The translations under genes were made by a program, and so were the position numbers. A DNA stretch of 64,000 nt from positions 19,857,207 to 19,921,206 of the forward strand of contig NC_064769.1 in NCBI RefSeq assembly GCF_011397635.1. The letters are read 5' to 3'. The notes under the pieces are model-generated. The model searched no databases, was not told the origin of the DNA, and saw only the letters and a program-made list of their open reading frames with translations. This document shows positions 10,301-64,000 of this stretch, piece by piece; within the stretch, counting starts at the first letter, position 1; every line of letters starts with the position of its first letter. The stretch comes from Epinephelus fuscoguttatus (lineage: Eukaryota > Chordata > Actinopteri > Perciformes > Serranidae).

Positions 10301-13300
10301 TATCCCTCAAAGACAGAAAATGTGCAGCTGAGGACTAGAAAAAATAAAATAATTAAAGGCTGGGTATAGTAAGAATCAGAGCTTTCTATCGTTCATTATA
10401 TGTGTACATTAGAAAATACTTGTTAAAACGTGACAACACTAGGAGCTATTTTGTGGCTGGGAGCTGAATTGTAGTTGTTGTCCACTGCTGTGGATGTATG
10501 ATTTATGCTATCATTAGCTGTTGTTAGCTCCTGAATAAAAGGCTGAGACTGTACAGTAGCTCACTCATTCCTCGGCCTGGTGTGTGGGTGCTGTCCTGTA
10601 GCTGCTAACAAGAGTCTGTCGCTTTGCAGTGGCTCGTTCTTTGTTTCAGGTCCCTTGGCGGACACGCCCCCAGCATTGCACAGCAGAGAATACTGCCTAT
10701 TTTTTAACCAATTTGAAACCTAATTTTACTTAAATACTTAATATTGTAAAAACGTACACCTTTCTGTGATGTGACAAACTCAGAGCACATGTTTATTTTT
10801 GCTTGACCTGGACTTTAGAGAGCAGTTACATGAAGCTATCAGTGTGACAAAGATGTATTTTTGCTATGCAGTAAACTACGCCATTAGCATTATGTGTAAC
10901 ACATGATACAGAGGCTAAGTATTGTTCTGTTGTGCAGGATTGTGACCTGCAGTACAGACTCATGGATGGCATCAGTTGCTCTTGTCATGACAAATTACAA
11001 CATCTTCCCTCTGACTGAGGTGCTCTCCTCCATCATGACTGACCTGACTCCACACCTCTCTATGACTGACAGGCATATGTCTGTCACCCCCTCCATCCCA
11101 CCTCCTTGTCGACTCCATGCTGCCACAGTCTGAGTCACGGTCTCTACCCCTGTCTTTGCCTCTGCTCCCATGTCTGGCCCCCCGCCCCGGATGCTGCTGC
11201 AGGACCAAAAGAAGAACTACAAAGCAGTGCAGTCCTGTGAGGAGGGGGGCTCTGGGGGGGCCTATCTTGAGCCGCTAGTGGCCCTGGCCCAGAACGGAGC
11301 CAACATGCACAATGTACTGGGGCCTGCGTGCATCTTTCTACGAAAGGGCTTCGCTGAGAGCCGGCAGGCTGTACGTAAGTCCAGACAATATCATGTGCAT
11401 GCATGCCGTGAGATTAGCACCCAACACAGTATACGCCCAATAACAGAACCATGTGATGAATGTGTGTGATAATCACCTCTCACTGGAACGTCAGCACTCA
11501 CAGCATGTAAATAATCACAGTGGAAATAAGATGGTACCTTTAAGGTATGAAATCCTTTTTAGTCTTTTGATAGCTAAAATGCTAAATGCAAGAGTGTGTG
11601 TGTCTGTGTGTATGTTTATGCATGTGGCTGCATTACTCATAAACATTGGTGGATATTTGTGGCAGGAAGGACGGAGGATTATTAAAGCCGGGTTATGGTG
11701 ATGGCAGAAATGCTCCCTACATGACGATTATCTGTCTTTGTCTGCAGTGACAACACGAGTCAGGGTTTGTTATTAAAGAAAACAGTGATGTTGAAATCTT
11801 CAGTGTGGACGACCGCTGTTTTACTGACTGTTCTGATAACAAGCTCTCACATGGCTGTCCATAATGGATAAAGGGGTGCAGATTGAGTCATTTTAAGTCA
11901 ATGGACCATCAAATAAAGGAACTGTTGAGTACTTTGCATTTTTTATTGCCTCTGCATCACCATCTTTACCTTGTCTTTGCTATTTAACTTTTATCCCATC
12001 ACTTAATGTTTTATTTTTCAACAGGATGTCACAGAGTGCCAAGAGTCCGCATGTTTTCTTCAGCATGTGATAAGCTCTTCCTCTTCGACTGGAAGGAAAC
12101 CTGCAGACTCTTGGCATTCTGCTGCAAAGACGTGCAGTTTCTTATTTTTTTAGCAGCATCATATTGTGTGAGGAGTGCTGCGTATTGGCATGATTTTAAA
12201 AATATCAGGAGTGTTTGGATCCTAACCTTGCACTGTGATCCTTCACAGGACCGAGAACTGAGGCCCGAAGAAATGGATGGTATGTATGTCACATTTTAGA
12301 AGTGAAAATAAAGGACGTGAAAATAAAACTCTAACTTTCACAATTATTCTCAAATAACTTTTCACATTTGCACCCTGTCTCCCTCACTGTCAGAGTTGCG
12401 TGAGGCATTCAAGGAGTTCGATAAAGACAAAGATGGGTTCATTGGCTGTAAAGACTTGGGGAACTGCATGAGAACTATGGGCTACATGCCAACAGAGATG
12501 GAGCTGATAGAACTGAGCCAGCAGATCAACATGAATTGTGAGTAAATCTGTCTGTGTGTGTATGTGTGCATGTCTATGAATTTTGTCTTCCATTTTACAT
12601 ACTCATATCATTACTGAAAATGTTTGACTTCAGTACATTTACAGCCACATTAAAGGAGCAGTGTGTAGGATTTAGCGGTGAAGATTCCAGCCAGCTATAA
12701 CTTCTCCCATGTGCCATGTGTGAATTCCCAGTTAGGATTATTTCAGTGCTCATTGTTCCATTGTTCGGGAAGTTTCATTTCTAAATAAACGGACTAGGTG
12801 GTAAAACCAGCAGAAACACTGAATAAAGCAGTTTGTCATTAAAAATGGGTGCTTTTTCCCAATGCTGTTTGGCTCATCATGGAGGGGTCGCTATACGGTG
12901 ACTGATGCGAAATTAAGAGAGGCCCTATCTAGAACCAGTGTTTGGTTTGTCTGTTCTGAGCTACTGTAGAAACATGGCAGTGCAACATGGTGATCTCTGT
13001 GGACAAGGACCCACTCAGTATGTAGATGTAAATGGCACATTCTCATGTGGGGTTTATTCTTCTGTATCGAATCAACACTATAGCCTGGCATGCACCTCCT
13101 TGGAAAATTAACTCCACGTCGCAGCGACACAGACCTCCTGTCTATTTTTGGAAACTGAAACCATTTCCCTAGTTGGCAACAAATCTTTTAGTTACTTTTA
13201 TTTGACAATAAAGAAACAATAAATTGTGAGGACAATAAAGCCTCCACAAAAATAGCATTTGAAATCTTGTGTTTGATTTATCCTTCAGGGGATTATACTT

Positions 13301-16300
13301 TGGGATTTATTTTGGCTTCATATGAACAGAGGAAAATCGCCACTCATTGCTAAGCTAATTTATACAATGTAAAATGCAATAGGCTTGTGCTAATAAGGTT
13401 AGCATGTTGTATTTGTTTGGAAAACCTGTTAAGTATAAGACAGTTGTTTTGTCTGTGAATCTTGAGAGTTATAATGGAGCTGAATTTTGTAACATTACCT
13501 TTGTTAAATGTTGCTGTTGTCCCTGGCTTCATATGAGTAGAGGAAAAATCCACTAGCCAGTAGGCTAATTTATACAATATAAAATGCCATAGTCTTGTGC
13601 TAAAATCATTAGCATGTTGTATTTGTGGGGAAAATGTGTCCAGCAAAAGACAAGTGCTTTGTCAGTGAATGCTGCGAGTTATAATGAAGTCGATTTGTGT
13701 ACTTTTGTTTGAAATTTCACTATTAAGCCATGTTTAATGTGTGTTTAATGTGGCTTTTGGATGTGTTTTGAACCAACTAAACTTTACAGCACTTTACAGA
13801 AACCCTGCACAAGTCTAAATGCTCACGTGCATAGAACTGACACACAAAAACTATAAATCCAGTTTAAGATAATGAAAACAAGATAATTCAGGTGATTATA
13901 CACCAAAAAAAACTTATTATATTGTATTCCATTCCTTCCAATACCCAAATCTGACACACTGGACCTTTAAAAAGCACAAATAAAGCAAAATGCTCTGTCA
14001 TTTTTTGTCCTTTAAGTGTAACCCAGCTTCCTCTTTTCAATCTGTCCAACAGTGGGAGGACATGTTGACTTTGAGGACTTTGTTGAACTTATGGGGCCCA
14101 AACTTCTGGCTGAAACGGCAGACATGATTGGAGTGAAAGAGCTGAGGGATGCATTCAAGGAGGTGAGGAAAGACATGGGGAGAAGCTCACAGAATAGCAA
14201 TCAAGCATGTTAACAGCATTATGTGAAGATTATCTTAGAGTGTTACCTTGTGGAAAGAATATCTTTAGAGGGGATTTCAGGTATGGCAACTATGGCATTG
14301 CAAAAACAAAACATAAGATTTTATGTCAGATAAAAGTGACAATAATCAGGATGTTCTACTTGGGTAATTTAGGGATGTTAACAGTGGTAGGGATGTATGT
14401 AAGAAAAAGGAAAATGGAGGTTTGATAATCTCATTCAATGATTTTATCCTTTTTGTATTCTGTTTCTCTGTCTCTCTCTCTCTTAGTTTGACACAAATGG
14501 TGACGGACAGATCAGCACAGCAGAACTTAGAGAAGCAATGAAAAAACTTTTAGGACAACAGGTACAGAGTCTGTCCTCCTCTCTCTGTAGCTCTCCATCA
14601 GTCATGATGTCTGTTTGAATCTTTCCTGTTTACTTGTGCATCTTGTCTGAGATCGTGTCGTGGACATTCACACCTTCCTCACAACCTGACTTTTTCAGGT
14701 CGGACACAGAGACCTGGAGGACATCCTACGAGACATCGACCTCAACGGAGACGGACATGTAGACTTTGAAGGTAAAGAATCTTATGCAGTGTGTTTGCAC
14801 AGCATTTCACTGTGTGCAAAGCAAACAAACATGCTTACACCATACCTTTGTCTGTTGGTGTCTTTCTATTTCTGTCTCTCACTAAACACACATAAACCTG
14901 CAAACACATTTTCAATGTAAAATCCCAACATGTGTGCTGGTATTCCAATACCATGCTGATAGTGAGGTGAGGAGATGAAGGCAGTAGGTCTGTCTGTCAG
15001 ATTATCTCCATACCAAAGGATTATGGCACCTCTGAGATTACCCACAGAGAAAAAGATGCATACAGGCTGTCTGCGATGAAAATATCAGAGAGGGCTGCTG
15101 TTCTCAGTAGTGCAATACTTCAACATATTTTCACATTTTCCATCAGCAATAATGTCCAAGTTACATTTGATTGAACAAGACCGAAAAAGAAAGTATACCT
15201 CTGGAGTGCTAGAACACATGTAGATCATGGTGAACAGGATTAATGTGACTTTTGACATAGGATGTGTGGCAGAAAAGAACCAAGTCATGTCCACAGTCCA
15301 TCAATAAACGTGCCTATAGGTCCATGCATAAGTGAAAAATTCTGCTTTGATCTATGATTGAATTGAATGTTGCTAGCAATACTTTAAGGAAAAATCACAG
15401 CAACTAAATACATTAAAACATACTTGGTAGTGTTCTGTTGTGCAGGTCTGTGCCCTTGATCTTGTTGTATATTTTTCCATCTGACAAATGTACTGTAACT
15501 CTAGTATTCATTCTACGATCTTAAACCGCTAAATGTTTACCAGCTAGCTGGTTGCTAACTGTGGTTGTCTGTCGATTGGTGCTAAGCAGCATATAGTGGG
15601 TAATTAGAGCTTATTCACTTAAGAAGAAGTGCTACAGTATGAGCTATGAGAGTGGTGAGAGTGAACCAAAACAGTTTAAGGTTGTAAGATGTAAAACCAA
15701 AACAATGAGCCAAAAGATGCTAAAATGCTCAATAGATTTGAGGGAAACTGCAGAGTTGAGTGATAATTTCCTGGAGCTTAGTCACTTTGAGCGACCCCCT
15801 TTTACTTTACATGTAAATATTGTCTAGCGCAGCTTTAAATAGTTGTTATCAAGCTAAAATATTTTTGCATACAAAGGGGTGTAAAGTACAGACCATCTTG
15901 CAATTTTATAACTGTTTTTAATCTTGCTTGAGTTTCTTGAAGACGTCTCTCATCCAAGAGGCTTTTTCAGTTCTGACATGCATACAAACAGAAGAAGGCT
16001 CTTAGCCTCAAGAAACTCAAGCAAGTCCAGTTGCCTACGGTATAGCACTTACAGTATGAATGTGGACCAGGGGCATAATTCTGGGGGGGCAGTGGCCCCT
16101 TCCCTAATTCCTAGCCCCGTACTTCTGGCGTCCTTGCACAAACTACTTCTATCCCAATAGAAAAAAATGATTTTCAGTGATTTCGTTTCCTGCATTCTGG
16201 TGACATTTAAACAGTATTTTTCTGTTAAACGATTTTAACTTTACTTTTGACTCTAATCTTCTTCGTCTAATATTTGCTTGAGTATTTCTTTCTCCCACTG

Positions 16301-47200: not shown

Positions 47201-50200
47201 AATCAAGCAGAGAGACAGAGTCAGAGGGAACAGGACGCATCTACACGCCATCTGGCACAAATTAACAAGCAGAGTAAAGACAAAGACGTCAAGACCGTCA
47301 GCGTTCTCCCTCAGCGCCTGGTGCAAATGATCGCCCCTCTGAGTAGGTCTCCCACAGATGCAAAGAACACCCAGAGCTTGACGCAAAGTAGCACCACCAG
47401 GGGAACATCAAATGCAGCCAAACACAATAAACGCCCTGCGCCGTCTAGACCGCGCTCTGCGGAAGAAGAGCCACCATCTGAACATAAAACAGCCCCGTCC
47501 TCTGATGGCAACATTTCCAATAAATGTGCCTCAGAGGCAAAACAAGCCCCGATTGTTTATGGCTTGAATCCATTTGAAGATGACGAGGATGAAAATGCAG
47601 CCCAAGATGATACCACAAGCTCTGGTAATACTGCTTCAGTACAATGGCCCCCAGCTGTGTCACAAGCTGCTGATAAAGATGCAGCCTCTCATGCTAAAAT
47701 CAAATCCTCAAAGACCCGTGCTCCCCCAGTTCCTGCACTGAAAGCTGCAACGCTGAGCACTTCAGTTGAACAAAACACTGACGGAGGCCATGTTACAGAT
47801 GAAACAGGTGTGACTGAAACTGATAACAGTTCACGTGACCCTGAGACTGTAAATCCTGTGCCTGACCAGGAGGTATCACCACAAGAGTCCCAGCCTGCGA
47901 CGGTGCAGAGTGCTGGAGAGGAGGCAGGTGGGAAGAAGGAAGGACCTCCTGTAGCGTCACGCAGGTGAGACAGTTAGCTCCTCAGCAGGATATTTATGCA
48001 ACTCAGATCACACACTGCTGGCTCCCAACATGATGCCTTTCATAAAAAGGAAAAATATTCACTACATTGCCAGGGCACCTATAAACACTATTAGTACAGG
48101 CACAATTAAATATAAAATGGAAAGATGTGGTTCTTGTCGCTGATTAGACAATAACCATGGTTTAATGGCGTTACAATACGGTCTCTTGTATGTTATTGCT
48201 CCTTTTTATTCACTCACCTCTCCACTTTCAACATGCTTCCTGCCTATCATCTGTTCCTGCCAAGTTACACATATAATCAGTGATTCCCAAAAAATACTTC
48301 CATGGGGCTTGCCTCACAGCTAGAGGGCTCTGGGTTTGAACCCGCTGTCCAACTGGGGCCCTTCTGTATGGAGTTTGCATGTACTTTCCGTGTCAGCATG
48401 GGTTTTCCCAGGGTTCTCCGACTTCTTTCCACAGTCCAATGACATGCAAGTTAGAGTAACTGGTGATTGCTCGTAGGTGTGACTGTGAGTGTGAATGGTT
48501 GTCTGTCTCTATATGTCAGCCTTATGATAGTCTAGTGACCTGTCCAGGGTGTACCCCACCTCTCACCCAGTGTCAGCTGGGATAGGCTGCAGCCCCCCGT
48601 GACCCTGAAAACGATAAGCGGTTGCAGATAATGACTGAATGAATGAATGAATGAACTTTCATGAATGTGTTGAGTGAAGAAGCACAGTGGTGGACTGACC
48701 GTGCTTATTTGACATGCTGTAATATGTTGAAAAATAACTGCAATTGAACAATATCACTTTGGCCAGCTAATCTGAAGACATTTGCAAAATGATACCAATA
48801 TTCCAACATGATTTCACTATGAAGCTTTGTAATATTAGTTAAGTTAATATAGCTTTGTCTGAAGACAACACTTACACTGTCATGAAATAAAAAAAATTCA
48901 TGCCCTCCGTCTTCTGTAATTTGGGGATTTGGACTTTTTTCTAATGTTTAGCTTGCTAGCTGTTAGAATTGGTTTGAATGAACACAAGAGGAGAAGGGAA
49001 GTTTTCTGTCTAGTCCTAGTGTGTGAAAGTACTCCAAGCTTGGGTCCTCTACCAGAGGCCTGGGAGTCGCAGTATCTTAGCTGTTCCTAGGACTGCACTC
49101 TTTAGGACAGTGACCTCAGATGTTGGAAGGCAAGGCAATTTTATTTATATAGCACCATTCATACACAAGGCAATTCAATGTGCTTTACAAGAGAAATACA
49201 TTAAAATAAAACATTAAAGGAACAATAGATCATTAAAACAAAAGCTAAAAGCAAGACAATAAATAGTTAAAAACAGTGCAGAAAATGCATTTAAAAAGCA
49301 AACATAAAGCAAAAGCAACAGCAGACAAATATAAAAACAATAGCTACAGATTATCCTAACAATAAATTACATATCTAGTTCACTGGTAAGCTACAGTAAA
49401 TAGTAATGTTTTAAGCCCTGATTTAAATGAGTTGACACTTTCAGCCGACCTCAGATATTCTGGAAGTTTGTTCCACAGGCGGGGAGCATAGAAACTAAAG
49501 GCTGCTTCACCTTGTTTGGTTTTGATCCTGGGAACACTGAGTAAACCTGTTCCAGATGATCTGAGGGGTCTGGATGCTTCATAACGTACAAGTATATCAG
49601 AGATGTATTTAGGCCCGAGACCATTTAGTGCTTTATAGACAAGTAACAAGATTTTAAAGTCTATCCTTTGACACACAGGAAGCCAGTGCAGTGATTTAAG
49701 CACTGGTGTAATGTGCTCCACTCTCTTGGTGTTGGTGAGGACTCTGGCAGCAGCGTTCTGGACAAGCTGCAGTTGTCTGATTGATTTTTTACTCAGGCCT
49801 GTGAAGACACCGTTACAATAGTCCAGCCTGCTGAAAATGAAAGCATGAACAAGTTTTTCTGTATCTTGTTTAGACAGAAATTCTTTTATTCTTGCTATGT
49901 TTTTAAGGTGGGAGTAGGCTGATTAAGACTGTACCTGGACTCTGCTGGAGCCACTCTCCCAGTTTGGGGGTCACAGCCCCCAGTGCTCCGATTACCACTG
50001 GCACCACTGTTGCCTTTACTCCCCACATCTTTTCGAGCTTGTCTTTCAGCCCTTGGTATTTTTCGAGCTTGTCGTGTTCCTACTTCCTGTCGTGTGGGAT
50101 TGCTACATCTATCCCCACTGCCTTCTTCTGTTGTTTGTCGATCAACATGATGTGCGGTTGGTTAGATGTCACCAGTTTGTCAGTCTGGATCTGGAAGTCC

Positions 50201-51380
50201 CACAGGATTTTAATCTGGTCAGCAGCTGGATAGCTCAGTGGTTAAGACTACTGACTTTGACATGGAAGAGTGGTGTTCGTTTCTGGTCAGGACAGGACCT
50301 GGACCCTTAGGCAAGGTTCTTAATGCTGCTAGCCTGCCTTGGCATGAGTAAAACCATGGACACAAGAGTCATACCGGCTCAGATGTCACCCAGGGCAACA
50401 AGTTCTGTGTTGAGGACCAGGGCAACCTGATCAGAAAGGGGCTACTGAAAAAAAAAGATGGACTAGAGCAGAGACAATGTTAGTTTTCAGACTGCAAAAC
50501 ATGGAGGGGTCGAATACAGTCATCTGAAAAAGTAAAGGGGACGTGTCACCCCTGTATGTGGCACACTTCTAATGTCAAGTCCTCTCTGATTCATCCTTTC
50601 ATTTATAATTTATACCCACTCATCTTTCACCTTTGCTTGTATTATTAATTGTGTTGTATCTGATAGGGTTGGTGTGGATGAATGAGCTTGCAGTGATAAT
50701 AAAACTACCATAGTCTGTTTGACTAGTGATTGCAAAATACTAAAGGTTACTCTTTCATTGTTTAGACAAATGATGCAGCATCATAACTGAGTCATACTCA
50801 GCATTTCACTTCACGTCTAGCAGGTGCCTTTATCTTTTTATCTCTCTCTTTTTTTTTGTCTTTGCAGGCTTCAACCTGTAAAACCGCTTAATCCTTTGGA
50901 GCAGCGATCTGTTTCAGCCGTTCAAGGGGAAAAAGAGAGCAAATCCACAGAAATCCTTTGTGAAGTTCAGGAGAAAACAAAGGTAACTTTTTTAGCCAAA
51001 GCATTTATACTGATTTTCTATCTCTAAATTATTCAGGGAAGGTTTCTGTGTTGATATGTAAATGCTTGTCTGTCTGGTTCATCAAACAGCATCAACATTC
51101 AAATCATCCATTAATGGTGTTGTGTCAATTTGTGTTCTTAGTCTACATAAACATTGTCTCCATGTTTTCTGCACTCTCACAGGTAAATGGCACTGAGCTG
51201 AAAGGGCCCTTCTCCCAGCTGACTCAGGAGGAACTCATCTCCCTGGTGATCAAACAGGAAACGCAGCTCGCAGACAGAGACAAGAAGATATCAGATCTGG
51301 AGCAGTACATTGACAACCTGCTTGTGCGTGTCATGGAAGAGAACCCGACTATTCTCATGTCCCTGAACGCTATGAAGTAA
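32263..51380 (+). CDS. rab11fip1: Rab11 family-interacting protein 1 (Rab coupling protein)
   Basis: Class I Rab11 effector that links GTP-Rab11 to recycling endosome membranes and controls receptor and integrin recycling. Coding exons: 32263-32615, 41857-42284, 42368-44561, 47092-47964, 50868-50982, 51183-51380; phases 2,1,2,2,0 all agree and the sum is 1386 aa (human 1283). A phospholipid-binding C2 domain starts at about residue 10 (VQVTVQQARGL, DAYALMQVGKEKF) and ends in exon 2 (VNIQFMRNNMTASMFDL); a poly-Gly run from GGA repeats sits in one of its loops. Lys-rich and Ser-rich linkers keep RCP landmarks (SNLQKNMSQSMSVLP, SNLCINGSHVY). Residues about 355-930 are Glu/Arg/Lys/Gln-rich helix absent from human RCP. 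NPF motifs occur at residue 959 (NPFDEDF) and 1151 (NPFEDDED). The C-terminal Rab11-binding domain (about 1335-1380) has the diagnostic YIDNLLVRVMEE. The paralogue (a/b) is undecided. Confidence 0.93.
32703..34320. repeat. Repeat fragments in rab11fip1 intron 1 (first part)
   Basis: AGGGCTGCAACCAGCCATTATT at 32703-32724 resembles the terminus of the hAT MITE family at 45129 and 46564. At about 34160-34195 the sequence TCCTCAGGGATAAATAAAG followed by TATTGAATTGAATTG looks like the 3' tail of a non-LTR retrotransposon. Bases 34246-34320 (CAGAAAACCGGAAATAATCA and onward) look like another piece of the hAT-like family. Limits are approximate. Confidence 0.4.
34321..38285 (+). other. rab11fip1 intron 1, middle part
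   Basis: No exon recognised. A T tract lies near 36153-36168. Sequence around 36740-37000 has the look of an old dispersed repeat but no termini were found. Confidence 0.35.
38286..38989. mobile_element. Long-hairpin TTAAAGGGACAG element, right terminus lost
   Basis: Starts TTAAAGGGACAGTTCAAACC. Its two halves are inverted copies: 38508-38564 pairs with about 38767-38821 (AAACTGCTCACAACAAGGTC on the right arm is the inverse of GACCTTGTTGTGAGCAGTTT on the left), and the outer parts pair too (GGAGATATCGGC against GTTGATATCTCC). The right arm stops at about 38989 where a Tc1-like end begins, so the expected final 75 bases are missing. No transposase frame. Confidence 0.75.
38990..39130 (-). mobile_element. 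Terminal fragment of a Tc1/mariner-like transposon
   Basis: TATACACCGATCAGCCAAAA followed by TTTAAACCACTGACAGGTGA is a terminus I recognise from a widespread fish Tc1/mariner family; it continues into TGGATACCACCTGACATGTT. Only one end is present; the transposase is missing apart from possible 3' coding remnants on the minus strand. Confidence 0.65.
39131..40945 (+). other. rab11fip1 intron 1, later part
   Basis: A (GAG)n run lies near 39578-39600 and an interrupted (CA)n tract at about 39896-39941. No exon recognised. Confidence 0.45.
40951..41612 (+). repeat. Two direct tandem copies of an approximately 331-bp unit
   Basis: TTATTGAGTGGAACATTAGA at 40951 recurs as TTATTGTATGGAGCATTAGA at 41281 (period 330), and GGAGTTGGTAGAGACCAAAA at 41167 recurs at 41499 (period 332). 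The copies share most of their length with small indels. It ends about 245 bases before the exon 2 acceptor of rab11fip1. Confidence 0.85.
42640..44395 (+). repeat. Coding tandem-repeat region of rab11fip1: charged single helix
   Basis: Codes for about 580 residues that are almost only E, R, K, Q with spaced L/I, in the manner of single alpha helices or trichohyalin-like coiled coils. A 153-bp (51-codon) period is visible: the string GGGCACAGG in the ERAQEERRRQEE segment recurs with its CACAGG at 43061, 43214 and 43367, and an extra partial step of 63 bp starts at 42998. Later copies (for example 43649) are more diverged. All periods are multiples of three, so the frame is kept. The 537-codon antisense frame across it is a by-product of the purine-rich strand. 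Confidence 0.9.
44562..45128 (+). other. rab11fip1 intron 3, first part
   Basis: The exon 3 frame stays open to a TAA at 44803-44805, but this tail is intron-like in composition and the donor GTTAGT at 44562 is well supported by phase with exon 4. Nothing else recognised. Confidence 0.5.
45129..45505. mobile_element. hAT-type MITE with intact target duplication
   Basis: Termini TAGGGCTGCAACTAACGATT and, inverted, TAGTACTGCAACGATTAGTC. Both sides are flanked by the identical 8-mer GTTTACAG (45121-45128 and 45506-45513), the target duplication size of hAT elements. 377 bp, with many sub-terminal copies of GATTAGT/ACTAATC. No transposase. It lies in rab11fip1 intron 3. Confidence 0.9.
45580..46560 (+). 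other. rab11fip1 intron 3, middle part
   Basis: Bases 45590-45735 include AACATGTTTCGACCACTGTT and GGTCTTCATCAGGGCTGGAG, which looks like a dispersed repeat of unknown family. The rest is AT-rich with no exon. Confidence 0.35.
46564..46863. mobile_element. Older hAT-type MITE related to the 45129 element
   Basis: The right end GAAAATAATCATTAATGCAGCCCTA is, inverted, close to the TAGGGCTGCAACTAACGATTATTTTC start of the 45129 element; the left end AGCTACAACAATAA is eroded. About 300 bp. No clear target duplication remains. Confidence 0.6.
48301..48660 (+). repeat. Ubiquitous teleost dispersed repeat, copy 3, with (TGAA)n tail
   Basis: Has a tRNA-like B box (CTGGGTTTGAACCC), then the same ordered motifs as copies 1 and 2, then GTCAGCTGGGATAGGCTGCA and a terminal run of TGAA units ending near 48656. 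A simple-repeat tail is typical of retroposed elements. Confidence 0.85.
49126..49925 (-). mobile_element. 3' part of an L2/Rex-like LINE
   Basis: On the minus strand, 49721-49380 encodes 113 codons ending the reverse-transcriptase ORF of a non-LTR retrotransposon, with the common fish LINE motifs HITPVLKSLHWLPV, FKILLLVYKALNGL, PSRPLRSSGTGLL-like and APRLWNKLPE. Downstream on the same strand is a 3' UTR ending in the GCTATATAAATAAAATTGCC type of tail (49126-49160 on the given strand). The 5' part is missing; the frame is open but only a fragment. Clade is not certain. Confidence 0.85.
49928..50215 (-). mobile_element. Remnant of a second LINE (endonuclease-domain C terminus)
   Basis: Reading the minus strand gives QTDKLVTSNQPHIMLIDKQ, then AVGIDVAIP, later KLEKYQGLKDKLEKMWGVKA and VVPVVIGALGAVTPKLGEWL. 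This pattern is a well-known fish LINE C terminus; the PxI...D...IDVAIP...K arrangement resembles a restriction-like endonuclease (PD-D/E-K) domain. A stop interrupts it near the middle, so it is dead. Confidence 0.7.
50216..50460 (+). repeat. tRNA-like SINE/retroposon fragment
   Basis: GGATAGCTCAGTGGTTAAGA is an A-box-like start, and GTGTTCGTTTCTGGTCAG about 35 bases on is B-box-like. The following sequence to about 50460 is likely part of the same retroposed unit. Not a functional tRNA: no consistent acceptor stem or anticodon arm. Confidence 0.5.
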
Positions 51381-57100: not shown

Positions 57101-60100
57101 CGATCTCCTCAGGCAGGTCATTCCAAAGTCTAGAAGCTCTCACTGCAAAGGCTTTATCACCTTTTTGAATTTATCTGTACCTGGGAGCGACAAGGAGCGA
57201 CACATCTGAGGATCTCAGGGTGCAAGAAGGGATGTAGGGCAATAACAGGTCAGATAAGAAACTTGGAGCGAGGTCCCTCGGGGCTTTGTGAGTAATTGAT
57301 AGTATCTTAAAATCTATTCTAAAAGCAAGCATGGAGAAAAACTGGGGAAAAGAATATCTGAGGATACCTTGGATGATACTTTATATACAGATATATATCT
57401 AAAATACTAAGCAGTATAGCCACTAAATGCCAGATGACACAGAACACCAGCCCCTCTCCTAATAGGACACGTTTTGTTTCATAATGTCTGACTATATGAT
57501 TATTAATGAGGAACTCTTGGCCATTGTACTTGAGTCACTGTATGTGCTGTTTTTAGCAGGACTACTATCAGCCTAGAAGGAGTAGTTAGCAGTAGTAGTG
57601 TTACCCTTATAGTAGCTAATGGGGATCCAAATCAGTAACTTAATAAAATAGCCGGTCCAACGGTGAATTTTTGACATTGGTACCAATATCTGGGAGTTTT
57701 AAAAATCCAATAATAGCCTCTCAAACCGCTCTTTCTCTCCCCCATTTCCTGTCTTCCTTTACACTGTGGCAAGAATTCTAAAATACTGAAGTAGGGGAAA
57801 AATCTGTACCCAAATCGGCAATATTTTATTTATTTATTTATTTATTTTAACATACATAGATAATAATGACTCCTGACATATACCTCCTTAGATGTTTTTT
57901 ATTGTGACCAATAGTCTATACATACTGAACAGGGCACTTTACAGGTGGAAAAAGCAACTTCTTAGTGCCCTCTGGTGGACATACTGTGTAATGGCAGCAC
58001 TGTTTCTGAATGATCTCAGGCGTAGTTTGGCATCTCTGTAGACCGATATATCTGCAATATGATAAAATTGGCTGATTAAGCTAGCTCTACCATTACTTAA
58101 TCCAGTCTTAATGGTTTTTATGCTATTGCCAAAATACTGATCATTTTATCCTCATTTTATCCCCTTGGAAGGTATCAAGGTCTGTTGCTTATTGCCTCAT
58201 AACAGCCAAAGAAGATTTTACAGCAACACTAGACAACACCAGAGCTACCTACAGTGGAGCGTTGGCTTCATGACATATTGGGTACACTCGTCTTTGCAAG
58301 AATCAGGTTCGCTCTGAAGGACAACAATGAGAATTTTAAGAAAATATGACCCCACCCCTGCATTACTTTTCTATAAGAAGTCTATGTCAGTTAAAACTTT
58401 TCATCTTCATCAGACAACTCTTAGAGGATCGTTTGGGGTTTTGTTTATGTCAGACTAAACTCTCTTCACTGCATTCACTGTGTTTTTGAGGGTTCATCAC
58501 ATTCTGTAGTCTGTTGCCTGGTTTTATTTTGTGGGATGATGACACGCAGCTGTACCAACTGTGTGCGAACGATAGCAGAGCATCAATTAGAATACACTCT
58601 CCAAAAATTATCGGTGTGTCCTTCAAAAAACAACGCCCTTGTTACTCCACTGCATAATCCACAGACCTCACCATGAACATTCTTTTTAATAAATTAATTT
58701 TTTAAATGTTATTTTTCCAATACAGTGAGCTCCATAAACAAACCCCATTCACTTTCATTATACTGGAGTGAATGCAGACATTATAGAGACAGATATCTGT
58801 AAACCTTGCCAAATAAATCTAAAACTGTCTGCATGGTCAGACACCATTAGAGGTGAGGGAGAATTTTTGTGAGGTCCACTTAATTTGAGTTGATGTATCG
58901 TGCAATAATGTTGCATAATCCAGACAAATGTGCAGTTTATCAAATAACCACAGGGCAGCTGACACAGTTAATATGAGACCTTAGAGACCCCCGAGGGTTT
59001 GGGGCCCTGGAGCAACTGCCCACTTTGCCTGGTTGGCAATAAAAAAAAAGCTTTAAAAGTCGAAACTCTTCTTCGTCTTGGGGTTTGCTAATCCCAACAC
59101 TCTGTGACTTTCTTTATGTTTACCATGATATTTTGCCTTGACTCTGTGTGCTTTCTTACAGATGTCAGCTACAGCCGAACCACAGCTGTGACCAAAAAGC
59201 CGTGTACGAACCTGAAAAAAGGTGAGGTCTTCTCCATGTGGAGCTTTGGCTTGTTAGAGACACTGTGACACAGGAGCTCTCCTCGCTGGTCTCACATACT
59301 CATCTAACTTTGTTCCACCTCCGCAGGTCTGCAGCGCGTGAAAGCCTTATGTCAGATTCTCCGGGTCAAGGGTGAGATCGAGGAGCTCTCGCAGATGTAT
59401 TACAAGCAGGCTTATGAGCATGAAAGTTTCATCAAAGTGAGCCTCCAGAAGAAAGAAGTTCTCGCTGGTTGCTGTGTGCTTGTGAGCTGCAGGCTGTCGA
59501 ACTGGCCAATAACCATAGGAACCATCAGCTACCTGGTGGATGACAACCAGCACATGGTGGGAGGGGTTTTCCACGAGATGGTCAAGATTCTCAACATCGA
59601 AGTTCCAAACGTCAGCATCACAGATGTGATCGAGGCCCACAGTCAGGAGTAAGTGATAGACGATGATCTTAATGGTCCTGCTTGAGGGGGGCGCTTGAAT
59701 AAACAGGCCATTTAAAAAGACTTAGTTTTTTACATTGTAGAATAGCAACAGATATGAGCAGGAGAGGCATGTGTTTTTGTATCTGCAGGGCTCCAGACTG
59801 CAACCATTTAGCTGCATTTTACAACCATGGAGTACCTGTGTGACTCGCAAATATAATTGATACATGAACTGAGGGGTATTCCAGAAAGCGGGTTTAGTGA
59901 AAACTGAGTATGTTAACCCTGAAATGAGGGAAACTCTGGGTTTTCAGTTCCAGAAAGAGAGGTAAATCAAACTCTGAGTCAATCACCATGGCAACTGAGT
60001 CTGTGAACATAACCTGCTCACTGACAGGTTTTCTTCAATAAACCCTGAGTTTTTCTCTGTCTCCTCCCTCTTACACGCTGATCCATTTCCTCATTCATTC

Positions 60101-63100
60101 AGTCCGTGTCAAAGCTTGTATCAAAGCGCGTTAATTAGCGGAGATTTACCGTCTGTCACAGTCTAAATCCTGCTGGATATTAGTTTGTTACTCAGGACTG
60201 TCTTAAGTTACTGAATTTATGCACATCAATCATTTCTTTGGCCATTGGTTTTTGTCTTTACATTCAAATATTACACAGCGAGAATTCACCCTCAGCTCAG
60301 AATCAAACCTCTGTCCTTTTTATATTTATTATTTTTTATAACACTATGCACAAGGATCAGACTGTCAGTCTGTTAGAGCAGCTCCCAAATGTTTATTGCA
60401 CATAATGTGTCGGTCTAAATATTTAAATTTTAAAAATCGGTATGAAGCTTTAGACACGTAGTATCAATGACTAATGATCTCTATCACTGATGTCATTGGT
60501 CGCACTGATGGAACATAATTCCTATAGCCTAATATTGGGGATTATATGTTAATATTTCTGAGTGAGCAATGGTGCAGCATTTCAATGTCTTTAAATTTAC
60601 TACATTTGTAGCTGAAATAAAGTCACTGAATGCTCTTGAGTCAAGATACAAATAGATGTCCAACATTTTAAAATCTATGTATTTTAACCTTAACATCTTT
60701 TCAAGTGCAAATCACCAAACATATTATTACTGGGTCAGACTGTGAGTTTACAGTCATGTCTTTATGTCTTTGATCTATAGCCTAGCCTATATGTTTTAAA
60801 TCTTCCTATTTTTCAGTTGCTGCCTCCTGTGTTTTTCCCCATCAGATTAAATCTGAACAAATATATTAATATAATGTAATGTATCTACAGCCTGATACAC
60901 AGCCACTTTATCTTCATTAAGGAAATGTAAGTCTGATAAATGATGAATAAATGGACAACACTTTTTTATTGACTTTATGGTTAACTTATTTACACTTTCC
61001 TCGCTCTTACTCAGGCTCTTCTTTTAAAGATAAACGTGCACCATCTGCTACACATGCATTAATATCTCTACATCCACTGGATTAAAATGGAGGCCTGTCT
61101 TTTATTTACCTGTTGCCATGGTGAATCGTGGAGTCGGAGCTCCATTGATGATGGCTTTTTATTGTCGACTTAACTGAGAGTGAACATACTCAGAGTTGAC
61201 TGAACTAACTGCTGTTCTGGAACCGGTAACTCAGAGTTTCCCATCTCAAGGTAAATCAACTCAGAGTTCAGGATTAGACTCAGAGTTTGTTGAACCTCCT
61301 ACCTGGAATACCGCTCTGGAAAGCTGTTGGGTTGTGTTGTTTCCCGCTTACAGTGAATAAGTCGTCACGTTTGAAGGCGCCACTAATGGTTTAACTTTCT
61401 GCTAACAGCTAACTGTTGATTGGAAGCTTCAGTACTTTATTTAACTTTATTGTAACAGTTCTTTGTAGAATTGTGTTATGGCAATACTTTATTTAACTTT
61501 AGTATAACAATATTTTATATAATGTTTTTATAATGGCACATTATTTAACTTTATTATAACTGTTCTTTTATTTAATTGTATTATATTAGTACTTTATTCA
61601 ATTTTGTTAAAATAGTACTCTATTTAACAGTATTGTATTTAACTTTATTATAACAGTTCTTTATTTAATTTTTTTTAACAGTACTTAAATCTTTTTGGCA
61701 ATTATACCTCTGTGTTATTTAACTTTATTATAACAGTTCTTCATATAATTTTGTTATAACAATACTTAATTTTATTATAAGAGTTCTATTTAATTTAGAT
61801 ACAATTGTACTTTATTTAACTCTACTATAACAGAACTTTATTTAATTTTGATATAACATTATTTTTTGTTGTAACAGTACTTTATTTAACTTTATTACAA
61901 CAGTTCTTTATTTAATTTTATAACAGTACTTAATTTTATAACAGTCCTTATAACAGTACAGTAATAGTGCTTTATTTAACTTTATGATAACAGTAGTTAA
62001 TTCAGTAGTTTAATATCAGTACTTAAGAGGAGATTTCAAAACAGGAGATAAATATCATGTATCCAAATACAGCCAAAAAATATTGCAGTACTATTTATAG
62101 GCTGTATCGCCCAGCCCTACAGTAAATTGCCCTTTATTACTTTAGACAAGGTTTTTTTTTGTTTTGTTTTGTTTTTTTAGAAATGTTCACAAGTGAACAA
62201 CAATGATTATTATTTGGTTTTGTTAAAGAAAACAACAACAAATCAACTGTAGGTCAAACAAAAGGAATGCTTTATATGATATATTTCAAAAAAGATTACA
62301 AGATTAAGACCCCAGGAAGAATAAATGCTGCTCTGGCTACAGCTAACGGGGATTCTAATACACAATATTAAAGGGAAATTTCGGTTTATTTCAACCTGTC
62401 TCCTATCGTCCTAAATTTGTTTCAAGTGACTAGTGACATAGAAATAATAGTTAGCATGTTAGCCGTTAGCCTAGATACAGCCGGGGCGCATAGTAGCGTC
62501 AGACCTGTTAAAACGTAAGTGAACGGGCAATCTTCAAGTGCAAAGTTAGTCCACTAAACAAGCTTTTTTCCACAAAGACCGCCTCATATCGTTAGGATAA
62601 ATGTCAGAGAACATATAGAAAACGACGTGAACGTGTTGTCTTATCTTACCGGTGTGCTGCCATGTTTGTTTACCATCTAGCTCTGCTTTCCAAAGCGTGG
62701 CCGAAATATATCTCACGAGCTCTAGATAAAGCCCAGCTGGATACTACTCCAGGTGGATGTGTCTCGTCCTCGGTCACATCCAGACCTTGAAAATAAGGCT
62801 GCAGCCGGTCCCATTCCTTGCAACAGAGGTATTCCTCTTCTGTGGGCATTGGGGCACAGCATTCTCAGGTACACCACCAATCTCCAGAGCCACGCAGCCT
62901 TGCAGCAGCCATTCCTCCTCTCTCGTCCTCTAACGTTACCTGTTGCGCCTCTCTCTCTCCTCCTCCATTCTTCAATTTCACAAAGCTCTTCGTCAGTGTA
63001 TTCTGGCTCAAATAAATAAGGGCGGCCATCAAACTCTGCAAAATCAAATTCCTCCTCCACAAAGTCGAAGTCTGGCAAAAAGTCAGCCATTATTCTATAA

Positions 63101-64000
63101 ATCTTTCATAAAATAAATTAATGAACTTTTCAGGCTACTGTCCGGTTCTGCCTTCCAGCTGTTGCTGCTTGTTCTCGCGAGATTTCAGGCATTGTATGAG
63201 ATCGCTGCTTGTTCTCGCGATATTTCGGCCGCGCTTTGGAAAGCAGAGCTAGATGGTAAACAAACATGGCAGCACACCGGTAAGGTAAGACAACACGTTC
63301 ACATGTCGTTTTCTATATGTTCTCTGACATTTATCCTAATGATATGAGGCGGTCTTTGTGGAAAAAAAAGCTTGTTTAGTGGACTAACTTTGCACTTGAA
63401 GTATGCCCGTTCACTTACGTTTTAACAGGTCTGACGCTACTATGCGCCCCCGGCTGTATCTAGGCTAACGGCTAACATGCTAACTATTATTTTTATGTCA
63501 CTAGTCACTTGAAACAAATTCAGGACGATAGGAGACAGGTTGAAATAAACCGAAATTTCCCTTTAAATTAAATATAATTAGATTAAATTAAATGAGTTCT
63601 GTAATAACTAAAAATGTTGTTTCTTTCTGTCAGGTACAAAATTAGCTCATCCGACGTTCCTGAAGTATTGGCTGAGAACTTCAAGGACTTGACCAAACGT
63701 GCTGTGGCGCTGGTGGAGCTGGCAGCAGACTCCTGGATTGTGACTGGCCGTACACCGACCCCCATCATGATGGCAGCAATTTATCTGTCCTGGCAGTCCT
63801 TGAAACCCAACAAGCACCGGCTCAGTGTCTCTCTGGACAAATTCTGTCAGATTGCCAAAGTGAAAAGGCTCCCTCCTGCTTCAAAGAGAATAACTGAGAT
63901 GAAGGAGATGCTGTGTAAGCTGGGAAAGGAGATTCCTTGGGTCAGGGAAGAGGTGACGCCACACAATGTTGTTCAGCAGCTGGAGGATATTCTAAAGTAC
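54180..64000 (+). CDS. brf2: BRF2, TFIIB-related RNA polymerase III initiation factor (3' end outside window)
   Basis: Subunit of the TFIIIB form used at type 3 Pol III promoters (U6, 7SK, selenocysteine tRNA), where it joins TBP on the TATA box and recruits Pol III with SNAPc and BDP1. Exons: 54180-54330, 59162-59221, 59327-59648, 63634-64000 (open to the window end); GT/AG throughout, phases 1,1,2 agree; 300 residues seen, human protein 419. The N-terminal zinc ribbon has C8-x2-C11 and C29-x2-C32 (LSCPGCG, VCMDCG). The linker VSYSRTTAV matches family members. Cyclin fold 1 covers about residues 72-165 ([22 protein letters not shown]) and fold 2 about 190-290 ([31 protein letters not shown]). 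The C-terminal region with the redox-sensing cysteine known from human BRF2 lies past the edge. Adjacent to rab11fip1 in the same direction, as in human. Confidence 0.95.
54773..56027. mobile_element. CAGGGTGTCTGCAGGT-ended DNA transposon with a nested insert
   Basis: Left end CAGGGTGTCTGCAGGTCC and right end ACCTGTAGACACCCTG are near-perfect inverted copies; sub-terminal AAGTCTTAAATCGTCTTAAA and AGTTCTTAAAAAGCATTAAG are typical of this fish family. A single-sided relative (ACAGGTCCTTAAAAAGTCTT) lies at about 45510. It contains the hAT insert at 55033-55464 and lies in brf2 intron 1. Confidence 0.7.
55033..55464. mobile_element. Nested hAT-like element (CAGGGGTGTCCAAAC end)
   Basis: Left terminus CAGGGGTGTCCAAACCTTTT; the right terminus GACTTTGGACATGCTTG is an eroded inverse. 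Flanked by CTTTCAGG on the left (55025-55032) and CTTTAAGG on the right (55465-55472), an 8-base target duplication with one mismatch. No transposase. Confidence 0.7.
56028..56858 (+). other. brf2 intron 1, middle part
   Basis: Bases 56215-56400 (CTTATTATTGTCATTATACG, then ATGAAACGAAG) resemble the 3' region of a fish retroposon. No exon. Confidence 0.4.
56860..57345 (-). mobile_element. Eroded 3' end of another L2/Rex-like LINE
   Basis: The minus strand from about 57345 to 57080 reads, with interruptions, [39 protein letters not shown] and [13 protein letters not shown], aligning in order with the LINE fragment at 49380-49721 but clearly another family. It has one stop and gaps. The 3' UTR follows to about 56860. 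Confidence 0.75.
57824..57848. repeat. (TTTA)n microsatellite
   Basis: Five to six TTTA units inside brf2 intron 1. Confidence 0.9.
57849..59161 (+). other. brf2 intron 1, last part
   Basis: No exon before the acceptor at 59160-59161. Bases about 58660-58800 (CATAATCCACAGACCTCACC, then TTTCATTATACTGGAGTGAA) vaguely recall the hairpin element at 38286 (ATAATCCACAGACCTTG, TTCCATTATATTGGAG), suggesting an older relative. Confidence 0.4.
59873..61314. mobile_element. GGTATTCCAG-ended DNA transposon relic in brf2 intron 3
   Basis: Left end GGGGTATTCCAGAAAGCGGG and right end CTGGAATACC are inverted. Sub-terminal regions also pair loosely: repeated AACTCTGAGT/ACTCAGAGTT words and CACCATGGCAAC (left, about 59985) against GTTGCCATGGTG (right, about 61110). 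About 1.44 kb with no transposase frame. Target duplication not evident; the termini suggest a Harbinger-like class, unproven. Confidence 0.7.
61432..61998. repeat. AT-rich degenerate minisatellite
   Basis: About a dozen diverged copies of the core TTTATTTAACTTTATTATAA followed by CAGTTCTT or CAGTACTT, at irregular spacing of about 40-60 bases. The order of cores with alternating AACAGTTCTT and AACAGTACTT points to a two-part higher unit. Confidence 0.8.
62368..63566. mobile_element. TTAA transposon with ~350-bp inverted repeats (T2/Kolobok-like)
   Basis: Begins TTAAAGGGAAATTTCGGTTT and ends AAACCGAAATTTCCCTTTAA. The left arm 62368-62718 and right arm about 63212-63566 are inverted copies with only scattered differences (TTTGGAAAGCAGAGCTAGAT near the inner edge of the right arm matches the inverse at about 62675-62694). 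The spacer of about 490 bp holds a broken minus-strand P2X7-domain-like gene. TTAA flanks plus TTAAAGGRR ends fit the T2/Kolobok group. It lies in brf2 intron 3, about 70 bases before exon 4. Confidence 0.85.
62700..63090 (-). pseudogene. Broken P2X7-cytoplasmic-domain-like gene inside the TTAA element
   Basis: On the minus strand, exon 1 (63090 down to 62940) starts [17 protein letters not shown], includes [13 protein letters not shown] and an Arg/Glu-rich stretch, and ends in phase 1 at a GTAACG donor. After about 55 bases an AG precedes a segment reading DWWCT, a stop, [15 protein letters not shown], then, after a one-base frameshift, [14 protein letters not shown] and an extension into the inverted repeat. 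The WWC...C...PM.TEEE.LCC pattern is that of the zinc-binding cysteine region of the P2X7 receptor C terminus and of many related small fish proteins. The internal stop and frameshift show this copy is not functional. Assignment by pattern recognition only. Confidence 0.65.

Follow-up and report, generated by a model that had tools for sequence, protein, structure and literature searches.

The analysed window, a 64,000-nucleotide stretch of contig NC_064769.1, contains close to its end a transposon with long inverted arms (62368-63566) that encloses a decayed coding segment resembling the cytoplasmic domain of P2X7. The element sits in an intron of BRF2, between the exon ending at 59648 and the exon starting at 63634. 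We called the BRF2 exons on Pfam matches (TFIIB repeat, E 1.6e-4; BRF2 C-terminal cyclin repeat PF21886, E 1.6e-41) and on splice sites read from the sequence. The downstream exon (63634-64000, plus strand), which carries the PF21886 match and a readable splice acceptor, starts 67 bp past the element. From its BRF2 and P2X7 genes we take the host to be probably a vertebrate.

The element is bounded by two TTAA target-site copies, the left at 62368-62371 and the right at 63563-63566. Directly inside them lie the left arm (62372-62709, plus strand), which begins with AGGGAAATTTCGG, and the right arm (63220-63562, minus strand). With the TTAA included (62368-62709 and 63220-63566), the arms are identical at 335 of 347 positions according to the sequence and a repeat search, and the termini inside the TTAA read AGGG...CCCT.

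We searched the host genome (1.047 Gb, 26 contigs) with the whole element. The search gave 1918 first-look candidates, the best 40 of which were scored; the comparisons below use all of these, and the window copy is one of them. End-to-end alignment was obtained for 31 of them, including the window copy; the similarity stops at the TTAA, the host flanks differ, and TTAA is present at both ends in 29 of the 31. The TTAA-flanked element with arms of about 350 bp that an earlier note on this DNA had described is thereby borne out. The median divergence of the copies from their majority sequence is 1.9 %, and the majority arms align over 355 columns with 1 mismatch and 4 gaps. As an exact 31-bp pattern, the end of the element was matched 1007 times in the genome (517 + 490) and its reversed pattern never (0 + 0), so the element is far above chance. 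End pairs were analysed for 100 of the 1007 exact matches, and these included 18 inverted pairs, 17 spanning 784-1243 bp and one spanning 2257 bp. Six of the 18 were picked for unusual spacing, and five of these retain more than half of the coding segment. In the sixth, the 784-bp pair L079, only short remnants of it are left, which comes close to the arms lacking the coding segment that the earlier note had named as evidence against its idea of a transposon-borne gene. Two loci (L074 and L075) represent a related form with arms of 391 bp, and by comparison the window form looks as if it had lost 36 bp between two repeated TCTCGCGA motifs. Among the 40 best-matching copies, which are not a random sample, 26 lie within 15 % of a contig end, with 12 expected. 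No relatives were found in the viral_contigs and genome_contigs collections.

The coding segment lies on the minus strand at 62670-63090, with its ATG at 63090-63088. The P2X7-type cysteine pattern reported in the earlier note (WWC / PTEEE-LCC) is present there, and the frame does end inside the left arm, as had been proposed from the 3′ coding part entering the inverted repeat. The two-exon layout given in the same note was rejected, because the majority sequence of the 40 copies has a single continuous open frame of 138 codons, starting between the arms near the right arm and ending inside the left one, and because the would-be intron would measure only about 10-44 bases. An intact frame of 137-140 amino acids is present in 13 of the 40 copies. 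A protein-level search with the frame also returned many coding matches: of 5471 first-look candidates the best 150 were scored, and 119 of these have no stop listed. This sample leans to intact frames, as it consists of the best protein matches, whereas the 40 copies are the best DNA matches.

The frame of the window copy is broken by a change in the length of a (CT)n tract and by a stop. The tract is variable in length in the column counts of the 40 copies and, together with a private 6-bp insertion (62931-62936) that adds two codons, occupies 62931-62970. The premature stop (62865-62867) replaces the second cysteine of the CxCxxC cluster and is private among the 40 copies, 39 of which agree on another base at 62865.

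To place the segment among known proteins, we refer to Kojima and Bao (2022, PMC9587614), where Kol0 Koloboks are described as encoding a transposase and, as their second gene, the accessory protein KolX. In the same paper, KolX is reported to match the ballast domain of P2X7, and P2X7 to have arisen through fusion with KolX. Rump et al. 2020 (PMC7016195) describe the cysteine pattern of the ballast. Pfam gave no match for the pieces into which the window relic is divided by its own stops. When read through the stops, four of five pieces matched P2RX7_C (PF20478) alone among 24,736 Pfam models (E 0.084, 0.11, 0.22 and 1.8, all below the cut-off); the N-terminal 47-residue read-through piece had no Pfam match, and neither had the reversed control. 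Ten of the 13 intact copies were tested, and all ten matched P2RX7_C alone (E 6.5e-4 to 0.12), the match always ending at profile position 101 of 192. The P2X7-domain similarity anticipated in the earlier note holds in that P2RX7_C is the sole match, with every score below the cut-off. We also built a profile from 12 of 30 P2RX7_C loci that had been cut out, the probable P2X7 of the host among the 12. Compared with this profile by hhalign, the family frame aligned at E 3.5e-5 over 27 columns covering two cysteine clusters (probability 72 %). The profile itself retrieves P2X7 chains at E 4e-29 to 3e-28, which is partly circular as one of its rows is the probable P2X7. Only the first two clusters of the KolX ballast cysteines are present in the family frame. 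We identify the coding segment as the first (5′) half of KolX, whose domain is also that of the cytoplasmic ballast of P2X7.

The truncated KolX frame decays neutrally; we tested for selection on the frame and saw none. In the 40 copies we counted 239 nonsynonymous (N) and 69 synonymous (S) substitutions, a ratio of 3.46 with 2.93 expected. Private non-CpG variants amount to 75 N (7 of them stops) and 28 S, a ratio of 2.7 with 3.0 expected, the expectation being computed over all distinct non-CpG variants. Those common to at least four copies are 4 N and 0 S. In 19 of the 27 broken copies the length of the frame differs by 2 or 4 bases, as is expected from slippage in a dinucleotide tract. We therefore consider it very unlikely that selection maintains the truncated KolX for a function in trans, such as competition with full KolX. 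The 13 intact frames and the 119 stop-free protein matches would fit such a role, but the substitution ratios are neutral, the variants shared by several copies are all nonsynonymous, the broken frames look like products of slippage, and both samples were drawn from best matches, the protein sample being biased to intact frames.

In the search with PF20478, for which 150 of 228 candidates were scored, we obtained 82 matches in the host genome and none in any of 14 control genomes. The best match (C6:43142617, E 2.1e-61) is a probable true P2X7, and two of the 82 are pieces of it. For 21 of the 82, one of 50 Kolobok-like transposase loci is found no more than 5 kb away, with 0.04 expected by chance; for this count four overlapping transposase rows were dropped (3 of 34 and 1 of 40), and all 82 rows were retained, the two from the probable P2X7 included. 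In all 21 neighbouring pairs KolX and the transposase are on opposite strands and convergent. Three loci on three contigs (L071-L073) have copies of one element in common, at 96-99 % identity, in which the KolX pieces and the transposase pieces lie on opposite strands; in L071 and L072 the end of the shared element is found at TTAA-AGGTGAC. From their motifs we take these transposase pieces to be of Kolobok type, an identity supported by their pairing with KolX.

An autonomous relative with the same ends as the window family, which the earlier note had suggested looking for, was not found among the 100 of 1007 ends checked, and none of these ends had a transposase locus within 8 kb. Descent of the family from Kol0 is therefore argued from the ends and KolX alone. 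The 2257-bp end pair (L078) was considered as an autonomous element and rejected: it owes its extra length to a nested insertion within the left arm, and none of the three L072 transposase pieces has a match in it. The inserted sequence is unrelated, measures about 1.08 kb and has inverted ends of its own.

Taken together, the window element is very probably a decayed copy of a high-copy, non-autonomous Kolobok family of the Kol0 lineage, with the KolX frame as a passenger. In the ancestral Kol0 element, KolX would have started near one end and a DDE transposase near the other, in the convergent arrangement seen in the related elements. Through an internal deletion the transposase may then have been lost along with the 3′ half of KolX, leaving the 5′ half to run into the opposite long arm. 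We read the family as a non-autonomous deletion derivative because it lacks both the 3′ half of KolX and a transposase, and internal deletion is the simplest reading since the KolX start adjoins one arm, as it does in the related elements. The derivative was presumably mobilised by transposase supplied in trans, inserting into TTAA sites, as seen in its copies. Going by the majority sequence, the truncated frame would have been open in the founder and has been decaying since as a passenger. The resemblance to P2X7 follows from the published finding that KolX and the ballast of P2X7 are one and the same domain. The earlier note had proposed that, if many copies share the layout, a T2/Kolobok-type family carries the P2X7-like gene either as cargo or as one of its original genes; this is supported, as the layout is indeed shared among many copies. 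Of its two versions "original gene" is the correct one, since KolX is the second gene of Kol0 Koloboks and is paired with a transposase elsewhere in this genome, with the restriction that the window family has retained only half of the gene.

Several results weigh against this assignment. The P2RX7_C matches stay under the Pfam cut-off of 23.5 bits, the best reaching 20.1 for half a domain, and searches of solved structures with single sequences retrieved no P2X7. Direct alignment of the window relic to P2X7 was too weak to be used as an argument: the relic frame is the best-scoring of the six frames of the element, but 33 of 5000 shuffles were as good and two other places in the window score at least as high. 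For 61 of the 82 P2RX7_C matches no transposase was detected within 5 kb, and only 1 of 30 P2RX7_C loci contains a transposase at E 1e-3. Among four transposase pieces, one matches PF20700 (E 0.049, below the cut-off) and three match nothing. None of the 30 P2RX7_C loci, each taken with about 1.5 kb of flank, is matched by the DNA of the element, and no match to the three L072 transposase pieces was found in 44 family loci or in 6 further loci.

Of the features of Koloboks, the TTAA target-site duplication is present, and the termini conform to the 5′-RR and YY-3′ rule that PMC9587614 gives for Koloboks, unlike piggyBac. The AGGRR motif that adjoins TTAA in T2-MITEs is represented by AGGGA. 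A DDD/E transposase with the C/DxxH signature of Koloboks is missing, and we claim the element only as a non-autonomous derivative. A piggyBac-type family that acquired a KolX-like gene would also use TTAA targets, but is improbable to a similar degree as the selected KolX: the AGGG..CCCT termini obey the Kolobok rule, and the cysteine-bearing N-terminal half is retained here, whereas piggyBac proteins are said, in the same paper, to be without most of the seven cysteines. Capture of a host P2X7-like gene by a MITE is the least credible explanation: a source exists in the probable P2X7 at C6, but the family frame is closer to KolX-like loci (L052, E 1.7e-4; L050, 7.9e-4; L054, 0.001; L048, 0.002) than to the P2X7 locus L041 (0.51), and KolX with a transposase is a standing element architecture in this genome.

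The region between the KolX start and the right arm contains a palindrome, TCTCGCGAGA (63173-63182), with a second copy at one mismatch at 63213-63222. With one mismatch allowed, the window has no match to it besides these two, with 0.44 expected; at least two were obtained in 9 of 100 shuffles. The palindrome is exact in 19 of the 40 copies, and one of the two window sites lies 83 bp upstream of the KolX start. It may have a promoter role. In the right arm, an outward ATG (63266-63279, plus strand) is followed by a donor-like GTAAGG at 63280; both were read from the sequence, occur in the left arm on the other strand as well, and are a speculative feature. Of the 40 copies, 27 have an exact match to the 19-base string containing them in the right arm and 26 in the left arm. 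The right-arm donor-like site has the same phase as the BRF2 exon that begins at 63634, some 350 bp downstream. Conceivably, portable two-way promoters, each supplying a short first exon, could have been distributed by the family in hundreds of places, which we regard as unlikely.

Some other features of the window were recorded. A second element flanked by TTAA lies at 12650-13970; its ends are of the AGG type (AGGAGCAGTGTGTAGG..., with 16 of 20 positions matching; 2 of 20 shuffles gave one match of 15 or 16), and it contains a 179-bp repeat of 78 % identity. An open minus-strand frame at 49383-49922 resembles the end of a LINE reverse transcriptase and had no Pfam match at 0.01. Upstream of BRF2, an exon with a FIP (RAB11-binding) domain was identified at 50964-51377 (E 1.5e-11).

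These counts provide evidence from one animal genome that Kolobok transposons make P2X7-like open frames in large numbers: two P2RX7_C rows belong to one probable true P2X7, against 80 other rows and many truncated KolX frames of the window family. The earlier note had offered such elements as the source of orphan P2X7-like proteins across fish; our 82 matches show the pattern in a single genome. KolX-type frames should be masked in annotation before P2X7-like genes are counted. The convergent layout of all 21 neighbouring pairs lends support to the published derivation of the P2X7 ballast from KolX.

The link between P2X7, KolX and Kolobok is already published, and the window copy is a good example of it, not a discovery; this particular family was not found in our literature searches, which covered open-licence papers and yielded, besides Kojima and Bao, a paper (PMC9319628) in which Kolobok and P2X7 are each mentioned once. 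Four known systems can be compared. With Kol0 Koloboks of the Kolobok-1_XT type (PMC9587614) the window family has in common the TTAA target, the 5′-RR/YY-3′ ends and a KolX with the P2X7 ballast cysteine pattern, but it is without transposase, keeps only the 5′ half of KolX and has arms of about 350 bp. The T2-MITE of Xenopus (PMC6004289) is likewise a non-autonomous, many-copy element with a TTAA target and terminal AGGRR (here AGGGA), whereas the window family is about 1.2 kb long, with long arms and a coding segment open in many copies. The Nanor and P2X7 ballast (ZCD) proteins (Rump et al. 2020, PMC7016195) share the CxCxxC and LCC clusters in register, while the window family lacks their third cysteine cluster as well as their C-terminal half. 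KolobokP (PMC9587614) belongs to the same superfamily and also has long terminal repeats, but there they are direct and accompanied by a His-Me nuclease, whereas in the window family they are inverted and enclose KolX.

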